From NCBI GenBank assembly GCA_026003475.1, contig BPHJ01000001.1, positions 1,611,189-1,675,188 of the forward strand: 64,000 nucleotides of DNA, written 5' to 3'. Shown piece after piece: positions 4,416 through 54,749 of the stretch (position 1 is the first letter of the stretch; each line of letters starts with the position of its first letter). The notes under the pieces were generated by a model, which was not told the DNA's origin, made no database searches, and saw only the letters and a program-made list of their open reading frames with translations. This DNA comes from Candidatus Kapaibacterium sp. (GTDB taxonomy: Bacteria; Bacteroidota; Ignavibacteria; Kapaibacteriales; NICIL-2). Made by a program: the position numbers and the translations under genes.

Positions 4416-4913
4416 TCAGAACATTCCGCTCTCAGTGGACGAGAGAACACGGCGGCAGAACGCGATGCATCGCTCGAGATACGTGCCCCACAGTTGCTCG
4501 CGGATCACACCGCGCGACTGGGAAGCGTGGAAGACAGTGCCGTCGCCTGCGTAAATACCCACGTGCGAGACGCCAGTTCGGCGCTCGAAACGAAAGAACA
4601 CCAGGTCGCCAGCTCGGAGCTGCTCGGTCGGAACGAACATGCCTGCTTGCGACTGCTGGAGCGTCGTTCTCGGCAGATAGACTCCTACTGCCGCAAATAC
4701 CGCTTGCACATAACCGGAGCAATCGAAGCAGCGCTCTCGAGAACCACCTGCGCAATACGGCGTCCCAAGATGGGATGCAGCAACGTCGAGCACCTGGCGC
4801 TGAAGCGCAGTCGGCGCGTTGCTCGGCGCGGAATACGTAAAGCGGACGCTACTGGAGCATCCTACCAGCAGACTCAGTGCAACGACTGCTGCAAGGTTAG
4901 TGCGAGTTTGCAT
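4416..4913 (-). CDS. NlpC/P60 family lipoprotein, putative cell-wall endopeptidase
   Basis: A 165-residue lipoprotein. The N-terminus [19 protein letters not shown] is a type II signal peptide with lipobox LVGC and Cys19 as the lipidated residue. Residues 36-155 are an NlpC/P60 cysteine peptidase domain: catalytic Cys65 in CFDCSGYV, His117 in SHVGIYAG and a third polar position at His129 (FHAS). The family cleaves gamma-D-glutamyl-diaminopimelate or related bonds in peptidoglycan stem peptides, so a periplasmic wall-remodelling role is likely. An in-frame start at 5033 is possible but would bury the lipobox 40 residues inside. The chosen start overlaps the 3' end of the upstream cobalamin/GTPase gene by 17 bases, which suggests co-transcription and translational coupling, although the two functions have no obvious link. 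Confidence 0.88.
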
Positions 4914-6333
4914 CCTCGCTGGCCGACAGGAGCTGTTCCATCGCGCCGCGCAGTTGGTAGAGCCGCCGTGCCAGCGCCGCTTGCCGCTCGACATGTGCAT
5001 CGTAGCGCTTATTGGTTTCGACAATTTCGGCAAGGTACCGCGACCGCTCCGGTGGTATTATCGTCATCCGAGTACTCACTGGGCTGGTGTGCTCGACATC
5101 GGTTGTCCATTCCAATCCAAAGCGCGAGCGAGCAAGCTCGATGAATGCCCGATACAACGCATTGGTGCCTTCGTCGTTGAACTGCGATGCAATCGTGCCA
5201 AAGACTGGCATGGTCTCCAAAGGCGAGGACCACAACCCATGCGAGCGCTGGTATTGCTTTCGGACGTCGCGCAGTGCATCGAGCGCGCCGCGTTTGTCGA
5301 ACTTGTTGATGGCAATTAGATCGGCGTAGTCAATCATGTCAATCTTTTCCAACTGCGTTGCTGCGCCGTATTCGGGTGTCATCACGTAGAGTGCGATGTC
5401 GGCAATCTCGGTCACTTGTGAATCGCTCTGCCCGATGCCCGCAGTCTCGACGATGATCAAATCGAATGCTGCAGCTTTGAGCACCCACAGCGCTTCCGCA
5501 ACGTATGGGCTGAGCGCCAGGTTCGCTTGACGAGTCGCGAACGACCGCATGTACACGCGCGGCGAGAATGCTGCATTCATCCGAATTCGGTCGCCGAGCA
5601 ACGCACCACCTGTCTTCCGCTTCGACGGATCTACCGAGAGAATCCCCACACGACGGTCGGGCGAATCTTCCAGAAAGCGACGGACAATTTCATCAGTCAA
5701 CGAGGACTTCCCCGCACCCCCAGTGCCTGTGATGCCGAGCACACACGTCGGGTGCGCACGCTCTCTGGCGAGACGTTGCCAGTCGAGAAGCTGCCGTCCG
5801 CGTTCGAGCGCAGAAATCGCTTGCGCGATTGCGCGGTCGTCCCGGTCGAGCACTGCGTGGCGAAGTTCATCGGGGGTAAAGGTCAGGGGCGTTTCGAAGT
5901 CGCTTTTTTCGAGGACGTCGTTGATCATGCCTTGGAGTCCCATCGCGCGGCCGTCGTCCGGCGAGTAAATCCGCGTAATCCCGTACCGGTGGAGCTCCTC
6001 GATTTCGCTCGGAAGGATCGTCCCGCCGCCCCCACCGAAAATGCGGATGTGCCCGGCGCCTCGCTCGCGGAGCAGGTCATGCATGTACGTGAAGAACTCC
6101 ATGTGCCCGCCTTGGTACGACGTGACTGCCACCGCCTGCACGTCCTCTTGAATGGCGCACTGCACAATTTCCGCGACCGAGCGATTGTGTCCCAAGTGAA
6201 TGACCTCGGCACCGCTCGATTGCATAATGCGTCGCATGATGTTGATCGCTGCGTCGTGACCATCGAACAAAGACGCCGCAGTTACAATGCGGATGCGGTG
6301 GGTGGGACGGTAGGCTTCAACCTGCTGTGCCAT
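4897..6333 (-). CDS. Cobalamin-binding domain fused to MeaB/MMAA-type GTPase (IcmF-like, lacks mutase domain)
   Basis: A 478-residue protein matching the N-terminal half of the fused isobutyryl-CoA mutase IcmF. Residues 12-140 are a B12-binding Rossmann domain with the axial-His loop [15 protein letters not shown] (His26) and a later IFGGGGGTI segment. Residues 195-420 are a G3E GTPase of the MeaB/MMAA type: P-loop GTGGAGKSS (203-211), [19 protein letters not shown] switch region, [10 protein letters not shown] and the NKFD base-recognition motif. IcmF continues through a helical linker into a TIM-barrel acyl-CoA mutase and is about 1100 residues long. Here the frame stops in the linker ([12 protein letters not shown]) and the next gene is unrelated. 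It may work with a separate mutase large subunit encoded elsewhere, or as a cobalamin chaperone. Confidence 0.87.
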
Positions 6334-7816: not shown

Positions 7817-9697
7817 TTATGACTCGACTTCCTCCCAACGGCGCTCATCGAAAATGAGTTGACGGCACAATTCCCGGCCACGCTCATCAATCGTGTAGAG
7901 CGGTACAATCTTGGATGCGTGAACAATGGCAAGATCGAGCCCAGCCTCGACGGCATAGTGCAGAAAAACAGAATTGAGAATGTGCCGAATGCGTGGCGAT
8001 AGCCCGAACGAACAATTGCTGATGCCCAGGATGGTAGCCGCGCGTGGCATCCGCTGCTTGATTTGCCGAAGGGCTTCCAGCGTCGCAAGAGCACTCTGGC
8101 GCAAGTCTTCTTGTCCCGATCCCAGCGGAAAGGTGAGCGGATCGAAAATCAAATCCTCCTCGCGCAAACCGTGATATCGCACGGCATGATCTCGGATGCG
8201 CTCGGCAATGGACACCTTTTTTTCGACCGTGTAGGCTTGTCCTTCTTCGTCAATCGAGAGCGCAACGACGGCTGCACCGAAGCGTTTGGCAAGCTGGAGA
8301 ATGGCATCGGCTTTGCGCGTTCCCTCCTCGAAGTTGATCGAGTTGATGATTGCACGTCCACCGTAGAGCTTGAGCGCTTCCTCGAGTACCGGCACTTCGG
8401 TCGAATCGAACATGAGAGGAATCGTCACCTGCGTGCGAAAGCGACCGACGACCTCGCGCATATCCCGAACCTCATCGCGGCCAACGTAGGCAACGCAGAC
8501 GTCGAGAATATGCGCTCCCTCGCGGATCTGCTCTTTTGCCATGGAAACCATTGCATCGTAGTTCTCGGCAAGGAGGAGCTGGCGGAATTGCTTTGAACCA
8601 TTTGCATTGCAGCGCTCGCCAACCAATACCGGTGGATTGTCAATGTGCAAGGGCACGCTTGAATACAGCGAACTCACACTGGGGATCGAAATGCAGTTCG
8701 AGCGCCGGATATGCTCCCTGCTCCGAACATCGGGGTGCTGGTTGTACTCGGCAAGCCACTCGGCAAGCAAACGGATGTGCTCGTCGGTCGTGCCGCAGCA
8801 ACCCCCGATAATCCGAACCCCGAATTCCTGCACGTAGCGTTTCATCCACGCAAGCAGCTCCTCCGGACGCAAGTGATAGTGCGCTTTGCCGCCGATGTTT
8901 TCCGGCAGTCCGGCATTGGGCATCACAAAAACTGGCTTGGGAGAATGCTGGGCCAGGTAGCGGATGTGTTCTTCCATCTCTGCCGGACCAGTAGCGCAGT
9001 TCATGCCGAAAGCAACGATGCTCTCGTACGGTTCGAAGGTTGCCAGCGCTGCAGCGATATCGGTCCCCATGAGCATGGTGCCCGTGGTTTCAATCGTAAC
9101 GCTGACGATGATGGGAATCTGGTGGTTCCGCCAATCGGGTGCGGACCTCGAACGCCACTGCGCGATGGCACGCTCTGCGCCGGCAAGCGCTGCTTTGATC
9201 TGGAGCGGGTCCTGGCACGTTTCGATGCAGAGCAGGTCGGCTCCTCCTTCGATCAGGCCGAGCGCTTGGGTCGAGAACGCCTCCTCTGCTTCATCGAAAT
9301 GGATGTGTCCCAAGGAGGGGAGCTTGGTGCCTGGGCCCATCGAACCAGCAACGAAGCGACGACGATCGGGCGTGCTTGCCTGGTCAGCGGCACGGCGGGC
9401 AAGCTCTGCAGCAGCACGCGACAGCTCGTAGGCGCGTTCAGCAATGCCGTACTCTGCCAGCACAATTGCCGACGAGCCGAAGGAATTTGTTTCGATGACG
9501 TCAGCACCTGCCTGGAGATACGCCCGATGGATCGCACCGATGATGTCGGGCCGCGTCAGACAGAGCAGCTCGTTGCAGCCCTCCAGGTGTTTCCCTCCGA
9601 AGTCCTCGGCCGATAGCTCGTAGCGCTGGATTGTTGTACCCATTGCGCCATCGAAGAGGAGAACTCGCTCCTCGAGCGCAGCAAGGAATGGATGCAT
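7817..9697 (-). CDS. metH: Methionine synthase MetH, homocysteine and methyltetrahydrofolate modules only
   Basis: A 626-residue protein covering modules 1 and 2 of cobalamin-dependent methionine synthase. Residues 1-325 are the homocysteine-binding barrel, with LLFDGAMGTTIQ at the start and zinc ligands in GMNCATGP and GGCCGTT. Residues 350-620 are the methyltetrahydrofolate-binding barrel (VGERCNANGSKQFRQL, DVCVAYVGRDEVRDM, FDPLTFPLGSG, LGISNCSFGL). Full MetH is about 1200 residues and goes on to the B12-binding and AdoMet-activation modules. Here the stop falls right after the folate barrel, and the adjacent gene is on the other strand. The B12 module must therefore be supplied by another polypeptide for methyl transfer to occur. 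ATG at 9697 was chosen because the family N-terminus aligns there; an upstream start at 9733 adds 12 residues. Confidence 0.9.
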   Translation of the reverse strand: MHPFLAALEERVLLFDGAMGTTIQRYELSAEDFGGKHLEGCNELLCLTRPDIIGAIHRAYLQAGADVIETNSFGSSAIVLAEYGIAERAYELSRAAAELARRAADQASTPDRRRFVAGSMGPGTKLPSLGHIHFDEAEEAFSTQALGLIEGGADLLCIETCQDPLQIKAALAGAERAIAQWRSRSAPDWRNHQIPIIVSVTIETTGTMLMGTDIAAALATFEPYESIVAFGMNCATGPAEMEEHIRYLAQHSPKPVFVMPNAGLPENIGGKAHYHLRPEELLAWMKRYVQEFGVRIIGGCCGTTDEHIRLLAEWLAEYNQHPDVRSREHIRRSNCISIPSVSSLYSSVPLHIDNPPVLVGERCNANGSKQFRQLLLAENYDAMVSMAKEQIREGAHILDVCVAYVGRDEVRDMREVVGRFRTQVTIPLMFDSTEVPVLEEALKLYGGRAIINSINFEEGTRKADAILQLAKRFGAAVVALSIDEEGQAYTVEKKVSIAERIRDHAVRYHGLREEDLIFDPLTFPLGSGQEDLRQSALATLEALRQIKQRMPRAATILGISNCSFGLSPRIRHILNSVFLHYAVEAGLDLAIVHASKIVPLYTIDERGRELCRQLIFDERRWEEVES

Positions 9698-9727
9698 CGT
9701 CAGAGCAAGGATGTGTGTGGAACCGTA

Positions 9728-9737
9728 GCACAATTTA
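9728..9737 (-). promoter_or_regulatory. Putative -7 promoter box of metH (TAAATTGTGC)
   Basis: The minus strand reads TAAATTGTGC about 30 bases before the metH start. It resembles the boxes before the sigma gene (TAATTTTGTGC) and leucine dehydrogenase (TATCTTTGTGC). Assigned by similarity only. Confidence 0.35.
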
Positions 9738-14653: not shown

Positions 14654-14944
14654 CTACCGCTCAATGCGAAAATCGTGATACCGCCCACTCGGGGTAATCC
14701 ATTCGATCGTTACTGCTTCGACGGCTGCATGGGGCGGACCCTGCCAGCAGCGATCGTGCAACTGTTCAATCGCTCTGCGTGGTCCTTCGACGGTAACGAT
14801 AACCGTCCTGCCATCGGGCGCATTGCGGACAGTTCCCACTAGTCCCAGCTCGGTTGCTACGCGCAGCGCGAACATGCGGTATCCAACTCCTTGGACACGA
14901 CCACAAATTGCAAGCCTTGCAGCAGCCAGTTCCGGAGCACTCAT
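14654..14944 (-). CDS. acyP: Acylphosphatase
   Basis: A 96-residue acylphosphatase, a small cytoplasmic enzyme that hydrolyses carboxyl-phosphate bonds. The diagnostic phosphate cradle GRVQGVGYRMF supplies catalytic Arg23, and Asn41 in GTVRNAPDGRT is the second catalytic residue. Length and ferredoxin-like layout are normal for the family. Its ATG overlaps the stop of the VWA-OmpA gene by four bases. Confidence 0.95.
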   Translation of the reverse strand: MSAPELAAARLAICGRVQGVGYRMFALRVATELGLVGTVRNAPDGRTVIVTVEGPRRAIEQLHDRCWQGPPHAAVEAVTIEWITPSGRYHDFRIER

Positions 14945-16320
14945 TTGGCAATGATCACCACCTCGGTACGACGATTGAGAGCACGACCGAATTCGGTTGC
15001 GTTGTCCGCAATCGGACGGCTATCACCATATCCAACCGTTTGGATACGTGCTGGCGAGATACCTTTCTTTTTGACCAGGTATTCCTTGACGCTTTCAGCG
15101 CGTGCTTGGGAGAGCCGCACGTTGAACCATCGTGCACCACGGTTGTCCGTGTGACCCTCGACCCGGATCGCCACACGGGGATTGTTTTTCATGAATTGTG
15201 CAAGCACTTCAAGTTCGGGTACATCCTCGGGCAATTGTGCACTGGCAGTTTCGAACAACAGATTCTCGATGATGAGCTTTCGACCTAACTCGACGACAGG
15301 AATTGTTTTTCGCACCAGCTCTTGCCGCCGCTGGTTGAGGATCGCAACATTGATCGAGTCGGGGATTGCCGGAAGATCGGTGCGGTAGGTAATCGAGAAT
15401 AGGTTCGTTAGTTGCGTCGAGTATGCGTTCAAAATGCGTGCGAACGATTGCCCGATATCGAACATTACCCCGCGCGTTGCTTTGGCAATGGTGTCGTATT
15501 GAACAAGCACTATCGGTGCGATGCAGAAGGTTCGCACATTTGCCCGCTGGAGCAGCTCGATAGCTGATTGGGTAGTCAGGTCTGTGCGTCCGTTGCCATG
15601 CTCACCGGCTTGGTGATAGGGTGCGTCGGTAATGAGAATTGCGACCCGATTTGCCGAGGGACGGTAGTCGAGCTTTGTTGCCTGTCGCAGTGCTTCCAAG
15701 GCGTTTTCTTTTTCGTCGAATCCTCCCCAGGCGCGCACCCGTGAAACCCATTCGATGAATTCGTTGACGTCGCTGGTGAAGGGATACACCTTCTCGATCA
15801 CATCCGAAAACAGCACCAACGCGAGCCGATAGTCAATGCCGCGTGCGAGCAAACTCCGCACAAACTGCGCGATGTTATCCCGAACAGCGTTGATATGCAC
15901 CTGCATCGTTGCCGTAACATCAAGCACGACGACAATATCAACGGGCACCCGTTCTTTGATGCTGAGCTTGGCGACCGACAGGACCTGTTTTTCGACACCA
16001 TTTTCGACCACGATGACATCCTCTTGACGGAGGGTATCGAGTGGATCACCATTGGTATCGACCCCCTCGACGATGAGACTGACTTCAGGATAGTGCTTGA
16101 TGTCAACATTCTGGATCGTTAGGTGGAAGCGTTCGCTTTTGGGTCGAAGTTGCGTCTGGAGCAATACCTGTTGCGGTTGCAACGAATCACTCTCGGTATC
16201 AGCGGCGATAACTATCCCTGGCCAGAGAATACACCCAACGAGCATGGACACCACTCCCCACCAGAGCAGCGCAGAAACAAACCACGACTGCGGAACAAAC
16301 AGAGCACGGGCATGGCTCAT
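14941..16320 (-). CDS. Envelope protein with VWA domain and C-terminal OmpA peptidoglycan-binding domain
   Basis: A 459-residue protein. ATG at 16320 precedes a hydrophobic leader (SWFVSALLWWGVVSMLVG); upstream in-frame starts cover a non-conserved-looking tail and the terminator region. Residues 75-280 form a von Willebrand A domain with a MIDAS variant DVTAT in place of DxSxS, the second metal loop AWGGFDEKENALEAL and ITDAPYHQ. Residues 340-459 are an OmpA-family domain (FETASAQLPEDV, IRVEGHTDNRG, LSQARAESVKEYL, VGYGDSRPIADN, NRRTEV) that should bind peptidoglycan. The protein therefore probably anchors a periplasmic adhesion or scaffold domain to the wall. It lies downstream of the GldM-like cluster, behind a terminator-like hairpin. 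Confidence 0.85.
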   Translation of the reverse strand: MSHARALFVPQSWFVSALLWWGVVSMLVGCILWPGIVIAADTESDSLQPQQVLLQTQLRPKSERFHLTIQNVDIKHYPEVSLIVEGVDTNGDPLDTLRQEDVIVVENGVEKQVLSVAKLSIKERVPVDIVVVLDVTATMQVHINAVRDNIAQFVRSLLARGIDYRLALVLFSDVIEKVYPFTSDVNEFIEWVSRVRAWGGFDEKENALEALRQATKLDYRPSANRVAILITDAPYHQAGEHGNGRTDLTTQSAIELLQRANVRTFCIAPIVLVQYDTIAKATRGVMFDIGQSFARILNAYSTQLTNLFSITYRTDLPAIPDSINVAILNQRRQELVRKTIPVVELGRKLIIENLLFETASAQLPEDVPELEVLAQFMKNNPRVAIRVEGHTDNRGARWFNVRLSQARAESVKEYLVKKKGISPARIQTVGYGDSRPIADNATEFGRALNRRTEVVIIAK

Positions 16321-16410
16321 CGCTTGATGACAATAAAAACTCGGATGATGGGTACAGCAAACAATTGCAAAACTATGGATTGCAGTCGCCTGTCCAGTTG
16401 GAATGCAGAA

Positions 16411-16443
16411 AGCGGAACGCATGGTCAATCCTTGCGTTCCGCT
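16411..16443 (-). terminator. Hairpin terminator downstream of the 16494-17876 gene
   Basis: A perfect 11-base inverted repeat (AGCGGAACGCA / TGCGTTCCGCT) with an 11-base loop. On the minus strand it is followed by TTCTGCATT, a weak T-rich tail. Its place, 50 bases after the stop at 16494 and 90 before the VWA start, fits a transcript end between the two groups. Confidence 0.6.
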
Positions 16444-16493
16444 TGGTGTTCGGCTGCTTAGGTAAAGAGCACCACCAGTACCTGCCGGCAGTG

Positions 16494-17876
16494 CTATCGT
16501 ATCGTCAACCGCAGAACCGGAGAGATCATGAAGAAATTCTTGATTTCCCACGGTCGTGACTCGCTTCGGAGAGGTGTCGAATACTTACCCTCCAAGTAGA
16601 GCCACTCGCCAACGAGTGGAACATACGCACGCGCAAAGAGCATTTGGTTTGCATACTGCACGGCCACACCGAAGGGAAACGTTGACTGGCTGCGATATTC
16701 AATGCGTGCGTAGAGCCAGTCCGCGGCAGTCGTCGGGTGGTAAAGTTGCAAGCCTGGCACATTCCGCACCAGTGCCGTATCGCCTGATTGCATTCGGCGA
16801 TATGCCCATTCCTGCACCTCGGTGTAGCAAACACCCAGATCGAAGCGGAAGAAGTTTTCCGGATGTTTCGGATCGAGCCACCAGTTGTAGAACAGTGCAG
16901 CATTCCCTGTTGTCCGCAGCACCGGAAGAACCGTTGTGGGATCAACGCCTGCGGTTCGCCGCAACTCGATCTGGCGCTCCAGTGATGGGGTGTATCCAGC
17001 CCAGGTGTCTTTTTCGGCTCTCCCACTGGTATCTGGACCGGCGATCGGGAATTCTACATTGAAGGTCAACCCAAACGGCGGATGGAATGGCGCATGGATG
17101 TCCAGTCCCAAGGACGCTTTGCCGGGGTTAGCGTTGAGCTGCCGAGAGGGCAAAAAGCTCAGCAGCCGGTTGGCTAAACCTCCACGAAGGCGGTAGGCAC
17201 CGCCGAGACGAAAATTGATCAGGTACGGAATCGGTTTGCTGCTGACCGGGTCGGCATTCTCGTAGAGCGGGCGCTGCAGTATGATCCGCGATTCCCCCGA
17301 GGACCAAAAGTGGTAGCCGATATTATCGGTACCCAGAATAGACCGAATCCAGAACCCCGTACCACCGATTTTGAGTGCTTGCTCGAATGCAGAAACAGAA
17401 ATCGAATGCGCCACATCGGTAGGCAGCATAAAGTCGGTAATCACTCGGTACTGCCGTTCACTCGGTGGCGTTTCGGGAGGAATGTCGCGGTAGCAGTAGG
17501 GACGCAACGGATCGCTGAGCGTACCGGCCAGCTTCCGCATGTAGGCATCCACTTCCGAGGCAACGAAGTACTCTTCTCCGCACTCGACCAGCAGAATTGT
17601 GTAGTAGTCATTCGGATCGCTCTTGGGAGCCGCCGTAATGACGATGTTCTGCATGTCGAGCTTTTCCTTGTCGCGCCCGTAGAGAATGAACGTCTGACGG
17701 ATCTGCAATTGCAGGTTCGGTTCGCAGACACGCCACCGGGGGAAATAGCGCACAATTTCTGGGTCGATGGTCTTGAGCGCTTGCATGATAGAATCGCGCT
17801 CGGGGTCCTGTGCTCGAAGTGGCAGCGTCCAGGCGAGCGCGATACTGAGTGCCAAGTATCCAAGGATTCGTTTCAT
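16494..17876 (-). CDS. Putative outer-membrane protein, unknown function
   Basis: A 460-residue protein with a signal peptide (MKRILGYLALSIALAWTLPLRAQ). The middle and C-terminal parts alternate aromatic and polar residues (YLINFRLGGAYRLRGG, LYARIEYRSQSTFPF, YLEGKYSTPLRSE), as in transmembrane beta-strands, and the end MISPVLRLTIR resembles a final strand. No catalytic motif is visible. AAAAGG lies seven bases before the ATG, and the gene starts 19 bases after the preceding 578-residue outer-membrane gene, so the two are in one operon with the GldM-like gene. Not recognised as a named family. Confidence 0.75.
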   Translation of the reverse strand: MKRILGYLALSIALAWTLPLRAQDPERDSIMQALKTIDPEIVRYFPRWRVCEPNLQLQIRQTFILYGRDKEKLDMQNIVITAAPKSDPNDYYTILLVECGEEYFVASEVDAYMRKLAGTLSDPLRPYCYRDIPPETPPSERQYRVITDFMLPTDVAHSISVSAFEQALKIGGTGFWIRSILGTDNIGYHFWSSGESRIILQRPLYENADPVSSKPIPYLINFRLGGAYRLRGGLANRLLSFLPSRQLNANPGKASLGLDIHAPFHPPFGLTFNVEFPIAGPDTSGRAEKDTWAGYTPSLERQIELRRTAGVDPTTVLPVLRTTGNAALFYNWWLDPKHPENFFRFDLGVCYTEVQEWAYRRMQSGDTALVRNVPGLQLYHPTTAADWLYARIEYRSQSTFPFGVAVQYANQMLFARAYVPLVGEWLYLEGKYSTPLRSESRPWEIKNFFMISPVLRLTIR

Positions 17877-17895
17877 TGCTTACCTTTTCGCGTGG

Positions 17896-19632
17896 TCAGA
17901 AGTTATAAATCACACGAAGAGTCGGAAGGAATACACTTGCTGTTTCCCACTCGTGGGGATCACGCAAGAGCGGCGCAAAATACTGCCCGTCGAAGCGCAG
18001 CCCAATTTGTTGCGACAGCGGAATCAACAGCCACGCCTGAGCAAAGATTGCATCGTCGAAATACTGGAGCCCCAGCCCATAGGGAGTTGTTACACGCATC
18101 GCCATAAAGTCAATCCGTGCCGAAACACCCCCAATGTAGCGGGTATCAACGCGGTACCAACGATTGACAGTGTACGAACTATCAATCCGCACCGTGCCGC
18201 CCTGATTAATGACCCGATAACGGCCAGCACCGTTGTTTGCTTCCCAGAGTTCGCGCGAATAAATCCCACCACCGATGCGGAACCGGAAAAAATTACCGCT
18301 ATCAATGGCAATTGCGAAGGTATAGTGCGCTTGCGCAGTAAAGCGGACAAGGTAGTCGTTTGCACGGGAGTAACTTTCGCTCCGAACGATCGTGTCGATT
18401 GCTTGTGTTGTCCGATCCACGATGGAGGCTTGCTCAAGGATGCGTTGATGATCCGATTGCCGTGCATCCCCGAATACGTACGATGCCGCAATATTGAACA
18501 CACCCGTGTTGGCGTTGGTGATCTTGAGCGGAAAATCGAACATGCCGTTGATTCCCCAGCCGGCATAGGTCATCGTCCGCTGTACGCCGAGCGACTTGGC
18601 AACCGACGACCATCCATTGGTCGGAAGAATGACCCCCAACCGATTCGACCCCCAGAGTGCATTGAGCGTGACGCGATCACTGAAAAACGATGGGTAGTTG
18701 ATCGTCTCCAAGCCATACCGCAGCTCAACCCCATACTTCGGGAGCGTGCGGTTGTAGATATAGCCTTCGCTCACAAGACTGGGATCGCTGGGCGTGTAGT
18801 CGCGGTAGCTGATCAAGTCCGGACTTACCATCAATTCGCGGCTCTTGAGGTATTCCATCGCTTGTCCGTCGGTCGTGCGGACGTAGGTCGAGACATCATC
18901 TTCCTTGACCGCAAGGCTAACGCCATACAGCTTAGGGATGAACTGTTCATCGCCGAGCCCTTGCGCTTCCGCAGTCACATTGATTCCTTCAGCTTCGCTC
19001 TGCTGAATAACGAAATTGTAAAGGTACTCGTAGAGTGTCTTCGCTGGTGACCCTGCTGGCGCAGCACTTTGCCGAAGCTGGGTGTAGGTGTAGATGTCTC
19101 GTGGCGATGCCAAGACATTTCCGAGGATGCGGCTTTCGCTGTTCGAGGTCAAGAGCGCAACAACCCGAAAGGGTTTGCCAGCGATATAGCGTGTGGTGAC
19201 CACATACGCGCGTTTGAATGTATTGCACTCCCATTGCTTCCGCTGCACCGCATACTTGGCGTAGTCAATGCACTCTCCGCGGAGGATACGCTTGATTTCC
19301 TCGTCGTCTTGCAGCGCCGTTAGATCGGCGGCACAGCCAAGCTCGGCCACCTTGTCGTCAATCTGTGTCTGCCGCGAGGCTGCACATGCTTTCGCCGACT
19401 CGGTGATCACAGGCTCTGGATTGAGCAGCTGCGTAACACCTTTCATTGTCTCGGCGTCAAGTTGGAAAATCGAGATATTGCCGTAGCGATAGTTTTTGAA
19501 CTTGCTCAAAATCGAGCGAAGCTGGGCATCGCTGGTTTGTCCTGCAGCTGGTATTCCGCTACAGACAATGCCAATGAACACAATTGTTGCCCACGCACCT
19601 GTGCGACATGATCGCACCAGCACATGTTTCAT
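17896..19632 (-). CDS. Putative outer-membrane beta-barrel protein, unknown function
   Basis: A 578-residue protein. ATG at 19632 is fixed by TGGAGGA nine bases upstream and a signal peptide ending IPAAGQ. Residues 30-230 are mostly helical and contain a cluster of Cys (KACAASRQTQIDD, ELGCAADL, GECIDYAKY, QWECNTF). The C-terminal half is rich in aromatic strands (YGVELRYGLETINYP, FFRFRIGGGIYSREL, GLRFDGQYFAPLL) and ends in LRVIYNF, a terminal Phe typical of proteins inserted by the BAM complex. It follows the GldM-like gene by 31 bases. A periplasmic domain plus barrel would suit an envelope-spanning complex, but the family is not one I can name. Confidence 0.75.
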   Translation of the reverse strand: MKHVLVRSCRTGAWATIVFIGIVCSGIPAAGQTSDAQLRSILSKFKNYRYGNISIFQLDAETMKGVTQLLNPEPVITESAKACAASRQTQIDDKVAELGCAADLTALQDDEEIKRILRGECIDYAKYAVQRKQWECNTFKRAYVVTTRYIAGKPFRVVALLTSNSESRILGNVLASPRDIYTYTQLRQSAAPAGSPAKTLYEYLYNFVIQQSEAEGINVTAEAQGLGDEQFIPKLYGVSLAVKEDDVSTYVRTTDGQAMEYLKSRELMVSPDLISYRDYTPSDPSLVSEGYIYNRTLPKYGVELRYGLETINYPSFFSDRVTLNALWGSNRLGVILPTNGWSSVAKSLGVQRTMTYAGWGINGMFDFPLKITNANTGVFNIAASYVFGDARQSDHQRILEQASIVDRTTQAIDTIVRSESYSRANDYLVRFTAQAHYTFAIAIDSGNFFRFRIGGGIYSRELWEANNGAGRYRVINQGGTVRIDSSYTVNRWYRVDTRYIGGVSARIDFMAMRVTTPYGLGLQYFDDAIFAQAWLLIPLSQQIGLRFDGQYFAPLLRDPHEWETASVFLPTLRVIYNF

Positions 19633-19663
19633 GCAGTTGGTCCTCCAGTAATGGTCATTTGCA

Positions 19664-21859
19664 TCAGTACGTGATCGGGACATTGATGACAGCTTTGCCA
19701 TCCCCCGACACTTCGCCGTTGCACTTATTCTTTGCTTTGGCGGAAACAATCAAGGTCACACTCCCTTCCACCTTGCCCCGGCGCAAGGGAGGCCCATCGA
19801 GACGGAGATCAACTTCGTAGCCACCAGCACTCGGTCGTGGATTCTGCGCCGTCACCCTATAGCCCGAAACGTCGGCTTTTTGGACGGTAACCTTGAAGTC
19901 GAAAATATCGTTGGGTCCTGCTTTTGCACCACCAACATCAACAATTGGTGGCAGAACCTTGATATTGCGAACAATGACAACCGGGACACGCGGATCAACG
20001 ACTTGGTCGAACTTGACGTCTGTTGTAATAATCTTCGGCGGACGTTGCTTGGGTGTCCCTTGGATTGCTCCGCTGGGCAGCAGCGATACTCGTTCTTTGG
20101 TATCGGGATCCTCCCAGAGAATATCAACAGAGACGGAATTGGCCGAACAGGGAATTTCACGGCGGTACTGTAATCCCCGAACCGGCTGTGATTGCTCGTT
20201 CCCGATAATCGCATTGATAAGATACTGCCCGGCTGAAATCTTTTTCCCATCGGCAGGAACAGGCAAGATCTCCAGCTCTGTGCCATAGTAGCAGTTTTCA
20301 ACATTGGCACGAATATCGTCGAGATTTTCCAGCTTGCTCTCGAAGGATTTGAGCTGAATACTTTTCTCAGTCGTCTTCCCGATACGATTTGCATGGGAGA
20401 TAACCAGCTCGTAGTCACCGGCAGGCACGCTCTGCTCGATGATGAGCTTGTAGTTCCTCGCCTGGGCACTGGGGTCACTCGATGCCGATGCTTGCTGGGC
20501 AGGACCGACATCCACGACCCGAACCGGCAACGTCGGATTTGACCGGGCCGTAGGCAGCTTCGCTGGATCGTACGGACTGGCTGTGAAGGGGATTTCCACC
20601 CGCGGGAGTCGGTCGAAGATGTACTTGGCGTCAGCAGCATAAATCACCGGGTCCGATGGCGGTGGAATGTTCGGCTTGACAACGCGAACATTGATCGCAT
20701 ACGAGGCTCGGTTCTGATCGAAAAATGCCGATGCACCTGGCGCTAATAGTTTGGCAATGTAGCTGTAGAGTTCCAACCGGCGGATGCGTTCTTGTGCTTT
20801 TGGATCGTCAGCAGCCGATTCCTCCTTGACACGATTGATCGCTGCTTGAATTTGTTCATCGAACTCATCAACGGTGATTTTGCCCAGCGCAAGGTCATCC
20901 GACGATGGAATCGGAATGCCACTGAGCTGCTCGACAATGTTTTTCTTCACCTGCAGCAGATCCTTGACCTTGAGCTGAACGGTACCGATATTGACCTTTT
21001 CCTCGAGTGGTACTTCGGTTGGCGGAACATCGCTGCGCACCCCAAGAATTCGGTTCGTCCGCGAGGCAAAGCGGAGCTTGTACCACCCTGGTTGCGATGG
21101 GGGTTGGAAGCGAACAAGGAAGAATCGCTTTTTGTAGCGACCGCCATTGTTTTGAGCTTCCAGGTCGGTCCGGTCTTGGGAGTAGATAAAAGCTGAATCT
21201 ACTGCACTTGGTGGAGTAAAGCGTCGGATATCTCCAATCTGAAGGGTTGGCTTGTATGATGGGCGGCGGTAATCGGTGACTTCCTCGACCTGCAGCTCCA
21301 GACGTTGCAATGCCATAAGTTTCCACCGCGCGCCATCAACCGGATCTCCGAATTCCTGCCCTTCGGTGAACTTACTAAAGTCAACACGCATTTTCCGCAG
21401 CGTGTCGTCGGAAGGAAACAGCGGTGCACGGTCTGGCACATTGCTGGGGTGGTAGAAAATCTGATAGTCGAGCTCCTGCACATTGGCAAGCTTGATCAGG
21501 TTCTGCAGTTTCTCGGCTGCCTCTTTCGGATCGAGCCCTTCAAGTTTGTCGGCAGTGCTGACGTCGGTCACACCAACGATCACCTCGTAGAGCCGGTCTT
21601 GCTTGATTTGCGGACCGCCAGCAACTCGCATCGAGGCATCCTGGAGCGTGATTTCATCCTGTGGACGGGTGCTAATACTTTCACTGCCCGCACCGGTCTG
21701 GAGCTGAGCCAGAATGCTCTCGACAATTTTCATGGATTCTTTCTGCTTCTGGATCAAGTGCTCTTCGGCTTCATCGCGCTCGACGATGATGATCAGAAGC
21801 TCCAGAATAACAGCCAGGTAAAGCACAAAGTACACCTTACCCGCACCGCCTTTTGCCAT
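19664..21859 (-). CDS. Inner-membrane-anchored periplasmic protein, GldM/PorM-like topology
   Basis: A 731-residue protein with eight N-terminal residues in the cytoplasm, one transmembrane helix (VYFVLYLAVILELLIIIV, residues 9-26), a charged helical stretch to about residue 55, then a long periplasmic part built of beta-rich segments resembling Ig folds. GldM/PorM of the type IX secretion motor has the same plan: one N-terminal helix, a helical first periplasmic domain and stacked Ig-like domains that reach the outer-membrane ring. Clear sequence identity to GldM cannot be asserted from reading alone. The operon continues with two outer-membrane-type genes, and several proteins in this window carry T9SS-like sorting domains, which makes the idea attractive. 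No GldL-like neighbour is present. Confidence 0.65.
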   Translation of the reverse strand: MAKGGAGKVYFVLYLAVILELLIIIVERDEAEEHLIQKQKESMKIVESILAQLQTGAGSESISTRPQDEITLQDASMRVAGGPQIKQDRLYEVIVGVTDVSTADKLEGLDPKEAAEKLQNLIKLANVQELDYQIFYHPSNVPDRAPLFPSDDTLRKMRVDFSKFTEGQEFGDPVDGARWKLMALQRLELQVEEVTDYRRPSYKPTLQIGDIRRFTPPSAVDSAFIYSQDRTDLEAQNNGGRYKKRFFLVRFQPPSQPGWYKLRFASRTNRILGVRSDVPPTEVPLEEKVNIGTVQLKVKDLLQVKKNIVEQLSGIPIPSSDDLALGKITVDEFDEQIQAAINRVKEESAADDPKAQERIRRLELYSYIAKLLAPGASAFFDQNRASYAINVRVVKPNIPPPSDPVIYAADAKYIFDRLPRVEIPFTASPYDPAKLPTARSNPTLPVRVVDVGPAQQASASSDPSAQARNYKLIIEQSVPAGDYELVISHANRIGKTTEKSIQLKSFESKLENLDDIRANVENCYYGTELEILPVPADGKKISAGQYLINAIIGNEQSQPVRGLQYRREIPCSANSVSVDILWEDPDTKERVSLLPSGAIQGTPKQRPPKIITTDVKFDQVVDPRVPVVIVRNIKVLPPIVDVGGAKAGPNDIFDFKVTVQKADVSGYRVTAQNPRPSAGGYEVDLRLDGPPLRRGKVEGSVTLIVSAKAKNKCNGEVSGDGKAVINVPITY

Positions 21860-21914
21860 GGCGCCTACCTTTCAGATGTGGATGGATAGTCGTTCCACCG
21901 TCGCGCCGTGTCGC

Positions 21915-22181
21915 TTAGCGCTTCGGTGTCGCAGCCGGTTGGTTTGTCGTTGGTGCATCCGACTTTGCCGCCTCTGCAGCAGCCGGGGCTTGTTCGGTTT
22001 TTGCATCCAGTTTTGCTTCCGATGCGCTTTGTTTTACCGAACAGGACTTTTTCGCCGACGACTTCGACATGCAGCACGAAGCTTTCTCTTTTCCAACGCA
22101 CTTCCCATCGGAACCACAGGCAAGTGCAACGCTCCAACCGCTGATGGCTACTGCCGCGGCAAATGCAACGAGTGTTTTCAT
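21915..22181 (-). CDS. Small secreted Cys/Ala-rich protein
   Basis: An 88-residue protein with a signal peptide (MKTLVAFAAAVAISGWSVALA). A short mature segment with six Cys follows (ACGSDGKCVGKEKASCCMSK, then KKSCSV), and then an Ala/Lys/Pro-rich low-complexity tail. The Cys spacing could bind a metal or form disulphides, but no family is recognised. The start is supported by a promoter pair 45-75 bases upstream (TTTG and TATATTCG). It lies 56 bases before the GldM-like gene. Confidence 0.65.
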   Translation of the reverse strand: MKTLVAFAAAVAISGWSVALACGSDGKCVGKEKASCCMSKSSAKKSCSVKQSASEAKLDAKTEQAPAAAEAAKSDAPTTNQPAATPKR

Positions 22182-39497: not shown

Positions 39498-42400
39498 TCA
39501 GCGCACCACTGCCAGCGGCAGAACCTGCACCACATGCCCTGCAACATAGCGGCACCAATACATGCCGGCGGGGAGATCGTTGAGTTTGGTGGTTAGCTGA
39601 TAGACCCCGCGTTGTTGGACTGCCTGGCCGTCCCGAAGCACCGCCACCGCTTGCCCCTGCGTATTGAAAAGCTCGATTCGTACCGGCGTGTCGTAGCCGA
39701 GCGAATAGATCAGCGTGACGGCATCATTGGCAGGGTTGGGCGCTATTTCCTGGATGCCAAACGTTGTGCTGCTAACATGCACAAACCGCAACTCTCGGAC
39801 GCACAATTGCATCGTGACTGCCTGGCTTGCGGTTTCAAGTTGAATGCAGGGAGTAAGCGCTGGCGTTGGCAGTAGCTCGATGGTCGGTTCGAGCTTGTAC
39901 GACTGTCCAAGCAGCGTGCCCATCGTTAGGCGGAGGAGTTCGCCATCGTACAGAATCGGCCCGGTACCGGTGCCGGAAATTGTTAGCAGCGAGCCATCGG
40001 GTGCGACCGTCTCGCTCACGCCGAACGACCATCCCCCCAGATCCGTTCGCGTTGCCACTTGATAGGAACCAGTGTAGTACATCAGCTCAGCCGGATAGCG
40101 AATCTGCAGTGTCAGATCGCGAATGTCGAGTACGCTCCATTGGTCAGCCGCCAGCGAGATTGAGTACACAAGGTTGTTACCGGGTACCAATGGCTGCACG
40201 GGATCGAGCATAGGTTGAAGCAAGACTCGTAAGCGCTGCCGATCCGATCGCAGCGTAACAACCACGCTTGTATCGCCTGCATCCTCCGAGCGCACTGTGA
40301 TTGCGAGGATAACCTCGGGACTACTCAACCGCACACGGCAGCGATACCGCCAACGTTCGCCTACCGCAATCATCCTCGGCAAGAGCGGGAGCAGATTGGT
40401 TTGCGTGGTATCGCCGAGAGCAACCGCACTGCTTTCACTCACCGTGGCATTCCCGCCGCGGACTTCGGCTTCGATGCTTTCGATGCGTGCATCCTGATCG
40501 CTCAGACTCGATGGGTTTTCGATGAGCAGTTCGATCGTGGCTGAATCGCACGTGTATTGCGGACGTACAATGCTCTCCACCTGCACCCGCACAGCAATCC
40601 GGCACGGCACAACTGCCACCACAACTGTATCATGTTCGGTGCATCCATCGAGAGTCGTCGTCGTGAGCACATATTGGGTTGTCTGCTGGGGAGATGCAAT
40701 AGGACTGGCGCAATCATCGCACGATAGCCCCGATGATGGTTGCCACTGGTAGCGGTAGGTTGTTTGTGCTCCGATGGGCTGCAACTGGTACGCCGCTCCA
40801 ATGCAGAGCCGAATGCTATCGGGTACTGTGATCTGGGGAAGCGGGCGCACGCGGATCTGCACACTGCCTTCGATGCTACATCCTTCTGCTGTGCGACTCC
40901 GAACGGTGATCTGGCGTGATTCTGTCGCCAGGTAACGCACCGTCGAACAGTCATAGCAGTCCAATGGCACTGTTCGATCCCATTCGAGCACGCCATCGCT
41001 GGTCGCTTGCACGTGCACGCTGGTTCCTTCGCACACTGTCGTATCGAGCGGGGTAAGCTCGAGCGTTGGCCGTGGATGCACAATGACTTGCACTCGTGCT
41101 TGATTGGAGCATCCCGTGGACGTACTCGCCGTGATGGTGTAGGTTTGGCTAGTCGTTGCAATGATCGCAGTTGAATCGCATGTTGGGCAGAGCACCCCAT
41201 CGCTGGGCTCCCACCTGACTTGATCGGCGCCGGTGACCGTTGCCGCAACTACCGCAGTATCGCCAGCACAGAGCGTCAGTGGCGATGAAACCGTAATGCT
41301 CGGGCGTGGATGCACGGTAATGGTCATCGAATCGCGAACGCTGCATTGGCTGCTTCCATTCCCCGCGCTAATCACAACCGTATAGGTTCGAGTCTCGGTC
41401 GGTGTGAAGACCGGCGTCAGACACCCTGTGCACGAAACATCCGTTGATGGCGAAATCGAGATATTGTCTGCTCCGGTTGCAACCAACTGGAGCTGCACAC
41501 TCTCACCGGCACAGATGACAGTATCTGGCAGCGGCTGCAGTGTTGGTTTGGCAACGACACGCACTTCGATTGTCGCTTGTGTGGTGCAGCCAGCCGAATC
41601 CCCTGTGACCGTGTAGCGTGTGGTTCGTTGGGGTCGGAACGTGACCATCTTGCAGTCTGTGCAGCTGAGACCTTGAGCAGGAGACCAGCGCACCGTACCA
41701 CCGTAGTCGAGCGTGAGGACAAGACTATCGCCCTCGCACAGCGTAACGACCGGAGGAATTTTCCCCAATAACCCCGGTGCATACCGTACGCGAATGCTGT
41801 CACGTGTTTCGCAGTGCTCCGAATTGGCGTTTCGAGCAATAGCGGTGTACACAATTTCAGTGCCTGGTTGGGGCACAACGGTTGTCTGCGGGCAGATGCT
41901 ACAGCCGAGTCCTTCGGTCGGTTGCCATTGGATACTTTGGAAGCTTCCTTCAGCAGCTATCGTTACCGCTACATCGCTGCAGACCACCGTATCAGGACGG
42001 ACGCGAATTTGTGGTTTGCCATAGACGGTGATGAGCACATCATCGCTGACCGAGCAGCCGAGCGAGTCAAGCCCGACCAGTTGCAATTTCGTTGTCGCTG
42101 TTGGTGCGAGGGTGATTTGGTGGCACGTATCGCAGGGAATGACAAGCTGGGGATATCCAGGTGCAACCGACCACTTGACTGCATAGGCGGTACCCTGAAC
42201 CGAGATGGTAATGCTATCACCCAAGCAGAGTTCACGGTCGGGCCCAGCACTGACGGTAATATCGGGCACATCGGGCAGGAATGCCATACCGCCAATGTAG
42301 CCATAGGAATCGGCGTACCCGTAGCCATAGACGTAGAGTCCGAATAAACGCGGGCTTTCGATCGTATGCGCGCCATCGGTTACACGGATATTGGCGTACA

Positions 42401-43706
42401 CATAGCATGTGTTGGGCACCTCTTTGAAGTCCGCAACAAGGGTATCGCCATCGAGCAGGATGCTGCGGGTGTTGTTCGGTGTCGTGACAACGGTAATGTA
42501 TTGCTCGTAGTAAGTATTTCCACCTCCTGGATGGGCCACTTGGCAGGACTGGAATCGGTAATGGGATAGGTATTGCCGCCGCGGCGGAATAATCATCATG
42601 AATGGGTCGCCCAATTGGAGATCACTGGTGCTAGAGAATGAACGTTTGAACAGCGCAACCATCACCGGCTGGCTTGCTTCCAGCAGTGCCGCTTGTTGCA
42701 GCGGTGCTTGGTAGTACTGCCCCCGTTGGAGCTGAGCAACAACCCGTCCGTTGATTTTGATTTCGGTGCCATTCTCTGCAGCAAGAACCCGGTAGATATC
42801 GGTTGCTCCTTGGGTCGGTGGAGATGCTCCCTGCGGTTCCGCCAGCGGTGTGATAATGTAGGTTGTTCCCCACACCGAGCGCGGGATCATCTGCTCATAG
42901 AGCTGGTCGCGTGATACAAGCTGACCCCGCATTTGGACGGGCACCAGCGCGCGCTGATGACCAGCGAAGACGGCGATTTTCTTCGTAGCGACAATGCGCG
43001 TACCAGTCAGGTCGTAGTTCAGGTTCGTTCGGGAAAACTCTGCTTGATAGAGGATCGCTTGTCCTCGATTGATTCGAACATTCTTGATCTGCATCCCTGT
43101 CTCGGTCGTCGGTGCAGTAGGGTAGATGGTTACATCGGTTCCGTCCTCGATGCCCACAATGGCAAACTCCGATGGGGTCGTCTGGGTGCTCAATGTTCCA
43201 TTGATATCGCGAACTCCATCGGTGTTGTAGCTCATGATGTAGTACTCCGTGCCGAGCGTTGTCACCGGCAACACCAACGTTGCATCGCTGGTCGTGAGGG
43301 CTTGATTGAGCGCATAGACCGCAACGTCGCGATCGGCAGTCACGCGAAACACCCGTGGGCTGAGCGTTTCATTTTCATTTGGGGTAACAAACGTTCCATT
43401 GTTGTTGTAGCCAAACAGCTCATAGGGACGGTACTGGACGCGATGGAGAACTATTTGCTGAGGGTTGGAGATGGTAAAAGTTCGGGTTTGAGTTTGTCCA
43501 ATGTTATTCGTGTAGGTAATCGTGCCAGTGGTTGGTTGATCAGCGACAATGAACAAATAGAGGCTATCGGTTGCGTCGTCGCCGTTGTTGTGGTAATTAG
43601 GCAAGAACACCACATAGAAATCCCGCCCGCGTGTTGTTTGCTGTGCATGGACATTTGCAGAAGCAAAAGCAACCGCAATCGCAACACCGAGTAAAGTGGT
43701 ACGCAT
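39498..43706 (-). CDS. Large secreted protein: IgGFc-binding-like N-domain, CxxC Ig/PKD-like repeats, T9SS sorting domain
   Basis: A 1402-residue protein from ATG at 43706 with signal peptide MRTTLLGVAIAVAFASANVHA. Residues 25-480 resemble the IgGFc-binding N-terminal domain found in metazoan and bacterial adhesins (GRDFYVVFLPNYHNNGDDAT, TEFAIVGIED-type segments, FAGHQRALVP). Residues 490-1090 hold about eight beta-sandwich repeats, each with a start like DTVVCSDVAVTI or LTLCAGDTAVVA and an internal CxxC (CDTC, CSIC, CTDC, CTGC, CPTC, CYDC, CDDC). The end has a type IX sorting domain (IAPNPANDAVTLIYSLG to GVYQL and LPLAVVR). The internal Cys pairs suggest disulphide or metal stabilisation. 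It is probably an adhesin or cell-surface scaffold. Divergent from leucine dehydrogenase. Confidence 0.85.
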   Translation of the reverse strand: MRTTLLGVAIAVAFASANVHAQQTTRGRDFYVVFLPNYHNNGDDATDSLYLFIVADQPTTGTITYTNNIGQTQTRTFTISNPQQIVLHRVQYRPYELFGYNNNGTFVTPNENETLSPRVFRVTADRDVAVYALNQALTTSDATLVLPVTTLGTEYYIMSYNTDGVRDINGTLSTQTTPSEFAIVGIEDGTDVTIYPTAPTTETGMQIKNVRINRGQAILYQAEFSRTNLNYDLTGTRIVATKKIAVFAGHQRALVPVQMRGQLVSRDQLYEQMIPRSVWGTTYIITPLAEPQGASPPTQGATDIYRVLAAENGTEIKINGRVVAQLQRGQYYQAPLQQAALLEASQPVMVALFKRSFSSTSDLQLGDPFMMIIPPRRQYLSHYRFQSCQVAHPGGGNTYYEQYITVVTTPNNTRSILLDGDTLVADFKEVPNTCYVYANIRVTDGAHTIESPRLFGLYVYGYGYADSYGYIGGMAFLPDVPDITVSAGPDRELCLGDSITISVQGTAYAVKWSVAPGYPQLVIPCDTCHQITLAPTATTKLQLVGLDSLGCSVSDDVLITVYGKPQIRVRPDTVVCSDVAVTIAAEGSFQSIQWQPTEGLGCSICPQTTVVPQPGTEIVYTAIARNANSEHCETRDSIRVRYAPGLLGKIPPVVTLCEGDSLVLTLDYGGTVRWSPAQGLSCTDCKMVTFRPQRTTRYTVTGDSAGCTTQATIEVRVVAKPTLQPLPDTVICAGESVQLQLVATGADNISISPSTDVSCTGCLTPVFTPTETRTYTVVISAGNGSSQCSVRDSMTITVHPRPSITVSSPLTLCAGDTAVVAATVTGADQVRWEPSDGVLCPTCDSTAIIATTSQTYTITASTSTGCSNQARVQVIVHPRPTLELTPLDTTVCEGTSVHVQATSDGVLEWDRTVPLDCYDCSTVRYLATESRQITVRSRTAEGCSIEGSVQIRVRPLPQITVPDSIRLCIGAAYQLQPIGAQTTYRYQWQPSSGLSCDDCASPIASPQQTTQYVLTTTTLDGCTEHDTVVVAVVPCRIAVRVQVESIVRPQYTCDSATIELLIENPSSLSDQDARIESIEAEVRGGNATVSESSAVALGDTTQTNLLPLLPRMIAVGERWRYRCRVRLSSPEVILAITVRSEDAGDTSVVVTLRSDRQRLRVLLQPMLDPVQPLVPGNNLVYSISLAADQWSVLDIRDLTLQIRYPAELMYYTGSYQVATRTDLGGWSFGVSETVAPDGSLLTISGTGTGPILYDGELLRLTMGTLLGQSYKLEPTIELLPTPALTPCIQLETASQAVTMQLCVRELRFVHVSSTTFGIQEIAPNPANDAVTLIYSLGYDTPVRIELFNTQGQAVAVLRDGQAVQQRGVYQLTTKLNDLPAGMYWCRYVAGHVVQVLPLAVVR

Positions 43707-43795
43707 GCTACCTCTCGAGAATAGTTGAACTAAGCGAAAAATACACCGGAATATCGTTCTAACCAAATGCAGTGACACCGGCCGAGCACAATCAG

Positions 43796-53342: not shown

Positions 53343-54749
53343 TCACTCCACAATAACCGTGTACCACCGTACCACCCTTCCCTGGACCACCCGAAGGACG
53401 TACATCCCTCGCACGCCCCGACCCACCGTCACCATCACCTCCCCCTCCAGCGGTACACCACGGTAGAGAACCTCCTGAAGGCGCCCATGGACGTCGTATA
53501 ACTCCACCTGCGTCGGCACGCCCGCTTCGATACCCCCTACCACGACTACCCCACTCGATGGATTCGGATACAGGATCCCTCCACACTCCGATCCCTCCAT
53601 CACCCCACTGACCGGCTGCGCAAGATATAAGATCAATCGAATCAAATTATAGTCAACTATATACTTCCCACTCGGGGAGTAGCTCACATTCCCTATCCCC
53701 CACGGTCTTGAGTATTGATAGACCCTCTCCCCGGTCTCTACATCCCATATGCTCGGCGCAACGTGATAGATCGCCTTTGTCCCCCCCATCACATACCGCC
53801 CGTCCGGCGAAAGCGCAAACGAGAGCACCCCGCCGTTCGGAAATATCCGCACGATCCGCATGCTACTGTCGAACACAAAATACGTACTACCAGTGTTCCC
53901 CACATACCCTCGCGCTCCTCCTCCCCCACGAATATCATGAAGACTGTACTCCATCTGCCCCACAACGCGCCGCCCCGCTACATCAATCAACCACAAACGC
54001 AACCGATACGTATCCTGCGTGATTCCATCCGGACCAATGTACTGCCAATGCTCCTCCAAAACCAAATGAAGGTATCTCCCATCGTCGGTCCACAGCAAAC
54101 CCGGTGACCTCGCCTCCCCATAATTCGCATAACGATACCAATACAACTCCAAGTAATGCTGCTCCCCCCGCGGTACCCCCGCTTGCAGCCCGTACGGCAA
54201 ATGCCGCGGGATCGGGATCGTGTCCACCAACCGCATCGAGTCCAACGAGTACAACAACAACCTCGCCGCACCCGAACTGCTCACACCATTGCCTACTACC
54301 TCCTCCCACCCCAACAACTGACGACGCAACGGACACACCACGACGTCCAACAACCCCTGCGGCGGCACATCCCGCAACGTGTCCAACAACCGCCCCGTCC
54401 GATAGTCCGCCTTCCCAAAGTACGGCACTCGCGTGTACACGATCGGCGTGTCCGGCAACACCGCCAGCACTCCCTTCCCCCGCAGCTCCTCCACCTCCCG
54501 AACCGCTACCCCTCGCCGCACATCAATCTCGAACACCCGATGCTCCCACCGCACAAGGTCCGATACGATCAACACCGAATCGCTCCAGTGCCAGTACACC
54601 CCAAGCTGCTGGATTCCGTCATCGCCGGTGAAGATAGGCCCACACGGCTCGTACGCATACTTCGCCCACAGCACATCGCTGCTGTCTTGCGCCTGCACCG
54701 CGCCACCTGCCAGCAGCACACACAAGAAAAGGCACATGCTCCGCATCAT
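53343..54749 (-). CDS. Secreted beta-propeller-like protein with T9SS sorting domain (tandem copy 1, intact)
   Basis: A 468-residue protein with signal peptide MMRSMCLFLCVLLAGGAVQAQ. Residues 25-370 are WD40/quinoprotein-like beta repeats: YWHWSDSVLIVSDL, HRVFEIDVRRGVAVRE, GLLWTDDGRYLHLVLEEHW, GVLSFALSPDGRYVMGGTK and SIWDVETGERVYQYSRPWG. A type IX sorting domain follows (GILYPNPSSGVVVVGGIEAG to VRGMYVLRVVQG and RWYTVIVE). GGAGG and TAAATTTGC lie just upstream, so it has its own promoter and ribosome site. The next gene on the minus strand starts four bases after its stop. Copies 2 and 3 lie upstream. Function unknown; probably displayed on or released from the surface. Confidence 0.85.
   Translation of the reverse strand: MMRSMCLFLCVLLAGGAVQAQDSSDVLWAKYAYEPCGPIFTGDDGIQQLGVYWHWSDSVLIVSDLVRWEHRVFEIDVRRGVAVREVEELRGKGVLAVLPDTPIVYTRVPYFGKADYRTGRLLDTLRDVPPQGLLDVVVCPLRRQLLGWEEVVGNGVSSSGAARLLLYSLDSMRLVDTIPIPRHLPYGLQAGVPRGEQHYLELYWYRYANYGEARSPGLLWTDDGRYLHLVLEEHWQYIGPDGITQDTYRLRLWLIDVAGRRVVGQMEYSLHDIRGGGGARGYVGNTGSTYFVFDSSMRIVRIFPNGGVLSFALSPDGRYVMGGTKAIYHVAPSIWDVETGERVYQYSRPWGIGNVSYSPSGKYIVDYNLIRLILYLAQPVSGVMEGSECGGILYPNPSSGVVVVGGIEAGVPTQVELYDVHGRLQEVLYRGVPLEGEVMVTVGRGVRGMYVLRVVQGRVVRWYTVIVE

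Follow-up and report, generated by a model that had tools for sequence, protein, structure and literature searches.

A conserved operon in the genome of Candidatus Kapaibacterium sp. probably codes for the envelope-spanning portion of a divergent motor module of the type IX secretion system (T9SS) in Kapabacteria and their relatives, with a GldL-like partner encoded elsewhere in the genome, and we put the probability of this reading at roughly two in three (0.68). The evidence for it, all of it computational, comprises the genes themselves, their conservation as an operon, the co-occurrence of the two putative motor families, their adjacency in other orders, the lack of canonical matches and the fact that the genome also encodes SprA, PorV and a PorU-like protease. 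The operon lies in a window of 64,000 nucleotides (contig BPHJ01000001.1, positions 1,611,189 to 1,675,188) within a 2.16 Mb, single-contig genome that is estimated to be 95% complete. GldLM is said to occur exclusively in Bacteroidetes (reviewed in PMC9389320), and T9SS may be present in Ignavibacteriota, for which the power source is unstated (PMC11285876); our literature search, with most subscription journals and all preprints outside its coverage, found no paper describing the module. The two new families go together and are missing from both Pfam and NCBIfam; they give these lineages a candidate motor that can be tested, suggest that the GldK/GldN ring may be dispensable or replaceable, and provide diverse sequences useful for asking which motor residues and parts are essential.

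Layout and conservation of the operon

All genes of the locus lie on the minus strand and are transcribed in the order Cys-rich ORF, GldM-like gene, OMP1, OMP2 and VWA-OmpA. The GldM-like protein, hereafter GldM-A (731 aa; 19664-21859), is supported as an open frame with homologues that share a near-invariant N-terminus (GGAGKVYFVLYLAVILELLIIIVERDEAEE). It is followed by OMP1 (578 aa; 17896-19632), a predicted secreted protein of outer-membrane type that ends in ...YNF and whose start we set by homology and position (the ORF as listed runs to 19749, with the homology-supported start at 19632), and by its homologue OMP2 (460 aa; 16494-17876), identified by conserved gene position and profile comparison. 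The last gene of the operon encodes a VWA-OmpA protein (14941-16320), predicted to bind peptidoglycan and with its start likewise set by homology. A first-pass annotation of the window had described an inner-membrane protein, two outer-membrane proteins and a VWA-OmpA protein in order on one strand, and we find the open frames at these places and the operon kept in relatives. That annotation had also listed a Cys-rich protein between the outer-membrane proteins and VWA-OmpA, which was misplaced: the Cys-rich secreted ORF (88 aa; 21915-22181) is actually upstream of the GldM-like gene, and it occurs only in loci of the same genus or family (L038-L041), outside the conserved core.

Evaluating the conservation of this layout, we found the GldM-like gene in 41 of 41 genomes searched within the order, the order GldM-like-OMP1-OMP2 in all 20 relatives examined, and VWA-OmpA downstream of OMP2 in 18 of these 20. 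The genes of this conserved operon are real and their co-location is above chance. Upstream of the GldM-like gene, no consistent neighbour was found across the order.

Profile comparison by hhalign shows OMP1 and OMP2 to be homologues (probability 96%, E 2.5e-9), and both are predicted to be of outer-membrane type, with signal-like N-termini and conserved hydrophobic or aromatic residues at the C-terminus. Neither family matched NCBIfam, no meaningful Pfam match was obtained for any of 15 OMP1 members or for OMP2, and PDB sequence searches with OMP1, OMP2, the GldM-like protein and the GldL-like protein returned nothing significant. Like the GldK/GldN (PorK/PorN) ring, OMP1 and OMP2 are encoded beside motor genes and would be located at the outer membrane, but GldK and GldN are an FGE-like lipoprotein and a periplasmic protein, whereas OMP1 and OMP2 form a homologous pair of outer-membrane type. 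Elsewhere in Bacteroidota, disulfide bonds tie outer-membrane proteins to an internal track that moves, the partner there being GldK (PMC12635249). The VWA-OmpA protein carries VWA (1e-12) and OmpA (1.1e-21) domains, the latter being the OmpA-like peptidoglycan-binding domain that it shares with PorE, which like PorW is a peptidoglycan-linked T9SS protein; the PorE model, however, covers this OmpA domain alone and scores far below its cut-off (72.6 versus 600 bits).

GldM-A and its GldL-like partner

GldM-A possesses one N-terminal transmembrane (TM) helix (residues 9-27; 21779-21835, minus strand), supported by hydropathy and conservation, with a polar E20 at mid-helix and an invariant ERD motif following it. 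The first ~70 residues, including the TM helix and ERD, are near-invariant across the families of the order, which fits the expectation for a helix gripped by a partner. In an AlphaFold2 model (mean pLDDT 83.5, pTM 0.48), residues 6-55 form a long helix at the N-terminus, followed by a region of mixed alpha/beta structure (~66-395) and three Ig-like domains (~398-731), and the layout of this model is that of a membrane-anchored shaft. Because the database matches of the model are generic Ig folds, the layout is no proof of kinship with GldM.

Sequence comparisons did not link GldM-A to GldM. The GldM-like family matched nothing in Pfam or NCBIfam, its aligned relatives gave no meaningful match, GldM-A did not match the GldM family models TIGR03517 and PF12080, and hhalign of the GldM-like profile against GldM was negative. 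The first-pass annotation had proposed profile and structure comparison with GldM and PorM, and neither recovered a relationship: in addition to the negative hhalign result, Foldseek listings for GldM-A were filled by generic Ig folds, an outcome in which the absence of GldM and PorM from the listings excludes nothing. An apparent likeness in TM register between GldM-like proteins and GldM (K..YL) was dropped as evidence after reversed GldM sequences scored equally. What stands of the proposed GldM-type topology is the architecture, as GldM-A shares the plan of the GldM family, with one TM helix at the N-terminus and several periplasmic domains after it, Ig-like ones among them, while sequence comparison gave no support for homology; and since one TM helix plus Ig-like domains is a generic architecture, it argues weakly for GldM membership. 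We infer the relation of GldM-A to GldM from architecture, position and pairing, with family membership unestablished by sequence.

The pairing emerged when the GldM-like alignment was used as a profile to search the phylum. This turned up related loci in further orders of the same class, several of which encode short GldM-like proteins with a shared TM region (no similarity was detected between the short GldM-like protein and GldM). In all nine such loci (L096-L104), the gene immediately upstream of the short GldM-like one encodes a small membrane protein, here termed GldL-like, that contains a hairpin of two helices. Between the short GldM-like gene and the OMP genes, these other-order loci also encode a conserved secreted protein of ~366 aa (L096:10500-11600; L097-L103); we considered it as one half of a split GldM and rejected this, as it has no profile similarity to GldM-like proteins or to GldM.

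With the GldL-like query, homologues were found in 41 of 41 genomes of the order. The earlier remark that there is no GldL-like partner thus holds for the locus but not for the genome, where the GldL-like gene lies at contig positions 1108105-1109433, 0.52 Mb from the GldM-like operon and adjoining a PorU-like C25 protease gene, which is its direct neighbour in six of six genomes. Although apart in the Kapaibacterium genome, GldL-like and GldM-like genes adjoin each other in other orders (the neighbour itself is not proven to be GldM), and in four loci of one family (L138, L139, L140, L148) the GldL-like gene adjoins a paralogue of GldM-A. Genome G092 carries one complete run of GldL-like, GldM-like, OMP1 and OMP2 (L233) as well as a second locus with GldL-like, GldM-like and OMP1 (L232).

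The GldL-like hairpin has invariant Y309, G311, A312, G320, R322, G323 and E342, with E342 at mid-membrane in the second hairpin helix and invariant across 29 sequences. The hairpin of the Kapaibacterium protein is preceded by two additional predicted TM helices, a segment in the periplasm and, between TM2 and TM3, a helical domain in the cytoplasm, giving four predicted TM helices in all. A structure search gave generic helical matches only, and the absence of GldL from its listings excludes nothing. At the GldL-like genes the GldL model TIGR03513 had no match, its best score elsewhere being 19 bits (cut-off 68.3); matches of this model at 731229 and 165384 in the same genome were weak, covered the C-terminal part of the model only and were dropped. 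With hhalign, E49 of GldL is placed on E342, weakly (E 0.0086 with alignment A3, 0.13 with alignment A10). Against the GldL-like profile, the hairpins of canonical GldL outscore every one of 200 hydropathy-preserving shuffles, lose their signal on reversal and, as a group, outrank other membrane ORFs, and from these sequence comparisons a relation of the GldL-like protein to GldL is probable.

Five GldL subunits encircle a dimer of GldM in a proton-driven assembly (PMC9389320, PMC9127263), and GldL E49A blocks SprB secretion while GldM Y17A reduces secretion (PMC9127263). With this GldLM/PorLM system (TIGR03513, TIGR03517, PF12080; PDB 6YS8) the module shares the hairpin with a mid-membrane glutamate, a one-TM partner whose long periplasmic part has Ig-like domains at its end, gene adjacency in several orders, and the company of SprA, PorV and a PorU-like protein. 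It differs in that GldL-like and GldM-like proteins fall below every family model, and GldL lacks the two extra predicted TM helices, the periplasmic segment and the cytoplasmic helical domain of the Kapaibacterium protein. GldM is also shorter (~515 versus 731 aa), and its R9 is absent from the GldM-like family, where a mid-helix polar residue is usual instead (E20 in GldM-A; E, Q, S or N across the family). The four predicted TM helices and the cytoplasmic domain between TM2 and TM3 recall MotA topology among the 5:2 motors (MotAB, ExbBD, TolQR), but no sequence match to these was found, and TolQ surfaced in the structure search only as a non-significant entry (E 3.7).

Secretion components, co-occurrence and competing readings

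Searching the genome for T9SS components, we found SprA/Sov (TIGR04189) at contig positions 1722342-1728971 (900.8 bits, cut-off 200), PorV (NF033709, 2.0e-85, above cut-off) as one of four PorV-family proteins, and a PorU-like protease of 1776 aa (Peptidase_C25 2.6e-74; PorU models E 6e-60 and 1e-66, below their cut-offs). Of the genes named for such a search in the first-pass annotation, SprA and PorV were therefore recovered, but GldK, GldL and GldN were not found above cut-off. GldM (TIGR03517) matched neither this genome nor any genome of the order in the phylum sample; GldN had no match at E 1 in this genome, and 13 genomes of the order yielded none that passed the cut-off; and GldK had no match at E 1 in this genome and none above cut-off in relatives, where GldK-like matches far below cut-off were taken as ordinary FGE-domain proteins. 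The statement that the operon's neighbours are not the usual gldKLN genes is borne out, and no canonical gldKLMN set, which that annotation had named together with a missing structural match to GldM as refuting its proposal, was found elsewhere in the genome. T9SS sorting domains (TIGR04183), said to be carried by many secreted proteins of the window, are present, but among the window proteins tested two exceeded the NCBIfam cut-off (39498-43778 and 53343-54749).

To assess co-occurrence, we applied the GldM-like (A1) and GldL-like (A3) profiles to a sample of 247 genomes from the phylum, at E <=0.01 within the class. Both profiles match an identical set of 33 genomes, none of which has a canonical GldM match (TIGR03517). 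Re-testing on other-order genomes of the class, minus the seven used to build profile A3, gave 6 genomes with both, 28 with neither and none discordant (Fisher 7e-7, a value that overstates independence given that the genomes are related). All listed class genomes encode SprA, including 28 of 41 other-order genomes (e.g., G044, G059, G069) that carry neither the module nor a convincing canonical GldM, so SprA is not strictly dependent on the module unless a more divergent form exists there; these 28 genomes may possess either a still more divergent motor or none. A marginal TIGR03517 match in G098 falls on a non-motor gene. In the phylum sample as a whole, SprA occurs in 190 of 247 genomes and TIGR03517 GldM in only 62, and the current GldM model thus seems to miss many T9SS genomes.

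The module might instead be a proton-driven two-protein motor of the same general design with another job, such as surface motility, outer-membrane maintenance or envelope transport, with OMP1 and OMP2 as its own outer-membrane partners; the 28 SprA-bearing class genomes in which the module went undetected, the lack of any T9SS family match for OMP1 and OMP2, and the location of a second pair beside lptG (below) all lean that way. We nevertheless consider this unlikely, at odds of around one in five, as in each of six genomes the GldL-like gene lies directly beside that of the PorU-like sortase, and searches for a canonical T9SS motor found none in the SprA-bearing genomes that carry the module. 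More improbable still is that GldM-A is a static envelope-spanning scaffold whose resemblance to GldM (one TM helix and Ig-like domains) is generic: Ig-like domains are common, the TM control was unspecific and no sequence link to GldM emerged, but a near-invariant TM region, together with perfect co-occurrence and adjacency with a membrane partner bearing an invariant mid-membrane glutamate, speaks against mere scaffolding. That an ordinary GldKLMN was missed through incomplete assembly or over-strict models (completeness is estimated at 95%, and TIGR03517 misses many SprA-bearing genomes of the phylum) can practically be set aside and was already disfavoured, as TIGR03517 matches no genome of the order in the sample and the GldN and GldK searches came up empty above cut-off.

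Proposed mechanism and further motor-like genes

The first-pass annotation had left the choice between a divergent T9SS core and a different trans-envelope device, and the former is now the better supported, given SprA, PorV and a PorU-like protein, no GldKLMN match above cut-off, and a co-occurring GldL-like protein whose gene adjoins the GldM-like one in other orders. As a divergent T9SS motor, the module might work as follows. GldM-A would form an inner-membrane-anchored dimeric shaft whose single TM helix is gripped by a pentameric GldL-like wheel (a presumed 5:2 stoichiometry), and protons passing E342 of the wheel would drive the shaft by turning or pushing it. The chain of Ig-like domains in GldM-A would span the periplasm and act on OMP1 and OMP2, with which it would make contact, and these two proteins, in the gene positions of GldN and GldK, may couple the motor to the SprA/PorV/PorU machinery. 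The VWA-OmpA protein would tie the assembly to peptidoglycan, and the cargo pathway would presumably be T9SS. A bolder version, which we hold tentatively and consider rather less than an even bet, is that the module represents a distinct lineage of T9SS motors, in which a MotA-like four-TM wheel links GldL to MotA/TolQ, two outer-membrane proteins replace GldK/GldN, and force is transmitted differently.

Further motor-like genes were also observed. A second pair, comprising a GldL-like protein of 265 aa and a GldM-like protein of 491 aa (TM EIYFVLYLAALMLLL), follows directly after an lptG-like gene in the same genome (contig positions 1376984-1380364; L136:7985-11365), and in genome G012 (L149) it adjoins the long GldL-like and PorU-like genes. 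This pair looks motor-like, and its position beside lptG means that such pairs may serve something else. A third GldL-like type of ~310-340 aa occurs in many relatives (among them L142:9408-10424, L144, L146 and L150) and was not found in the Kapaibacterium genome itself.

Within the window but apart from the operon, the sorting-domain protein at 39498-43778 (1426 aa) combines an IgGFc_binding domain with its T9SS sorting tail. The genes at 7817-9733 and 4897-6333 each match approximately the first half only of the MetH and IcmF models, respectively, and appear to be split or truncated B12 enzymes.
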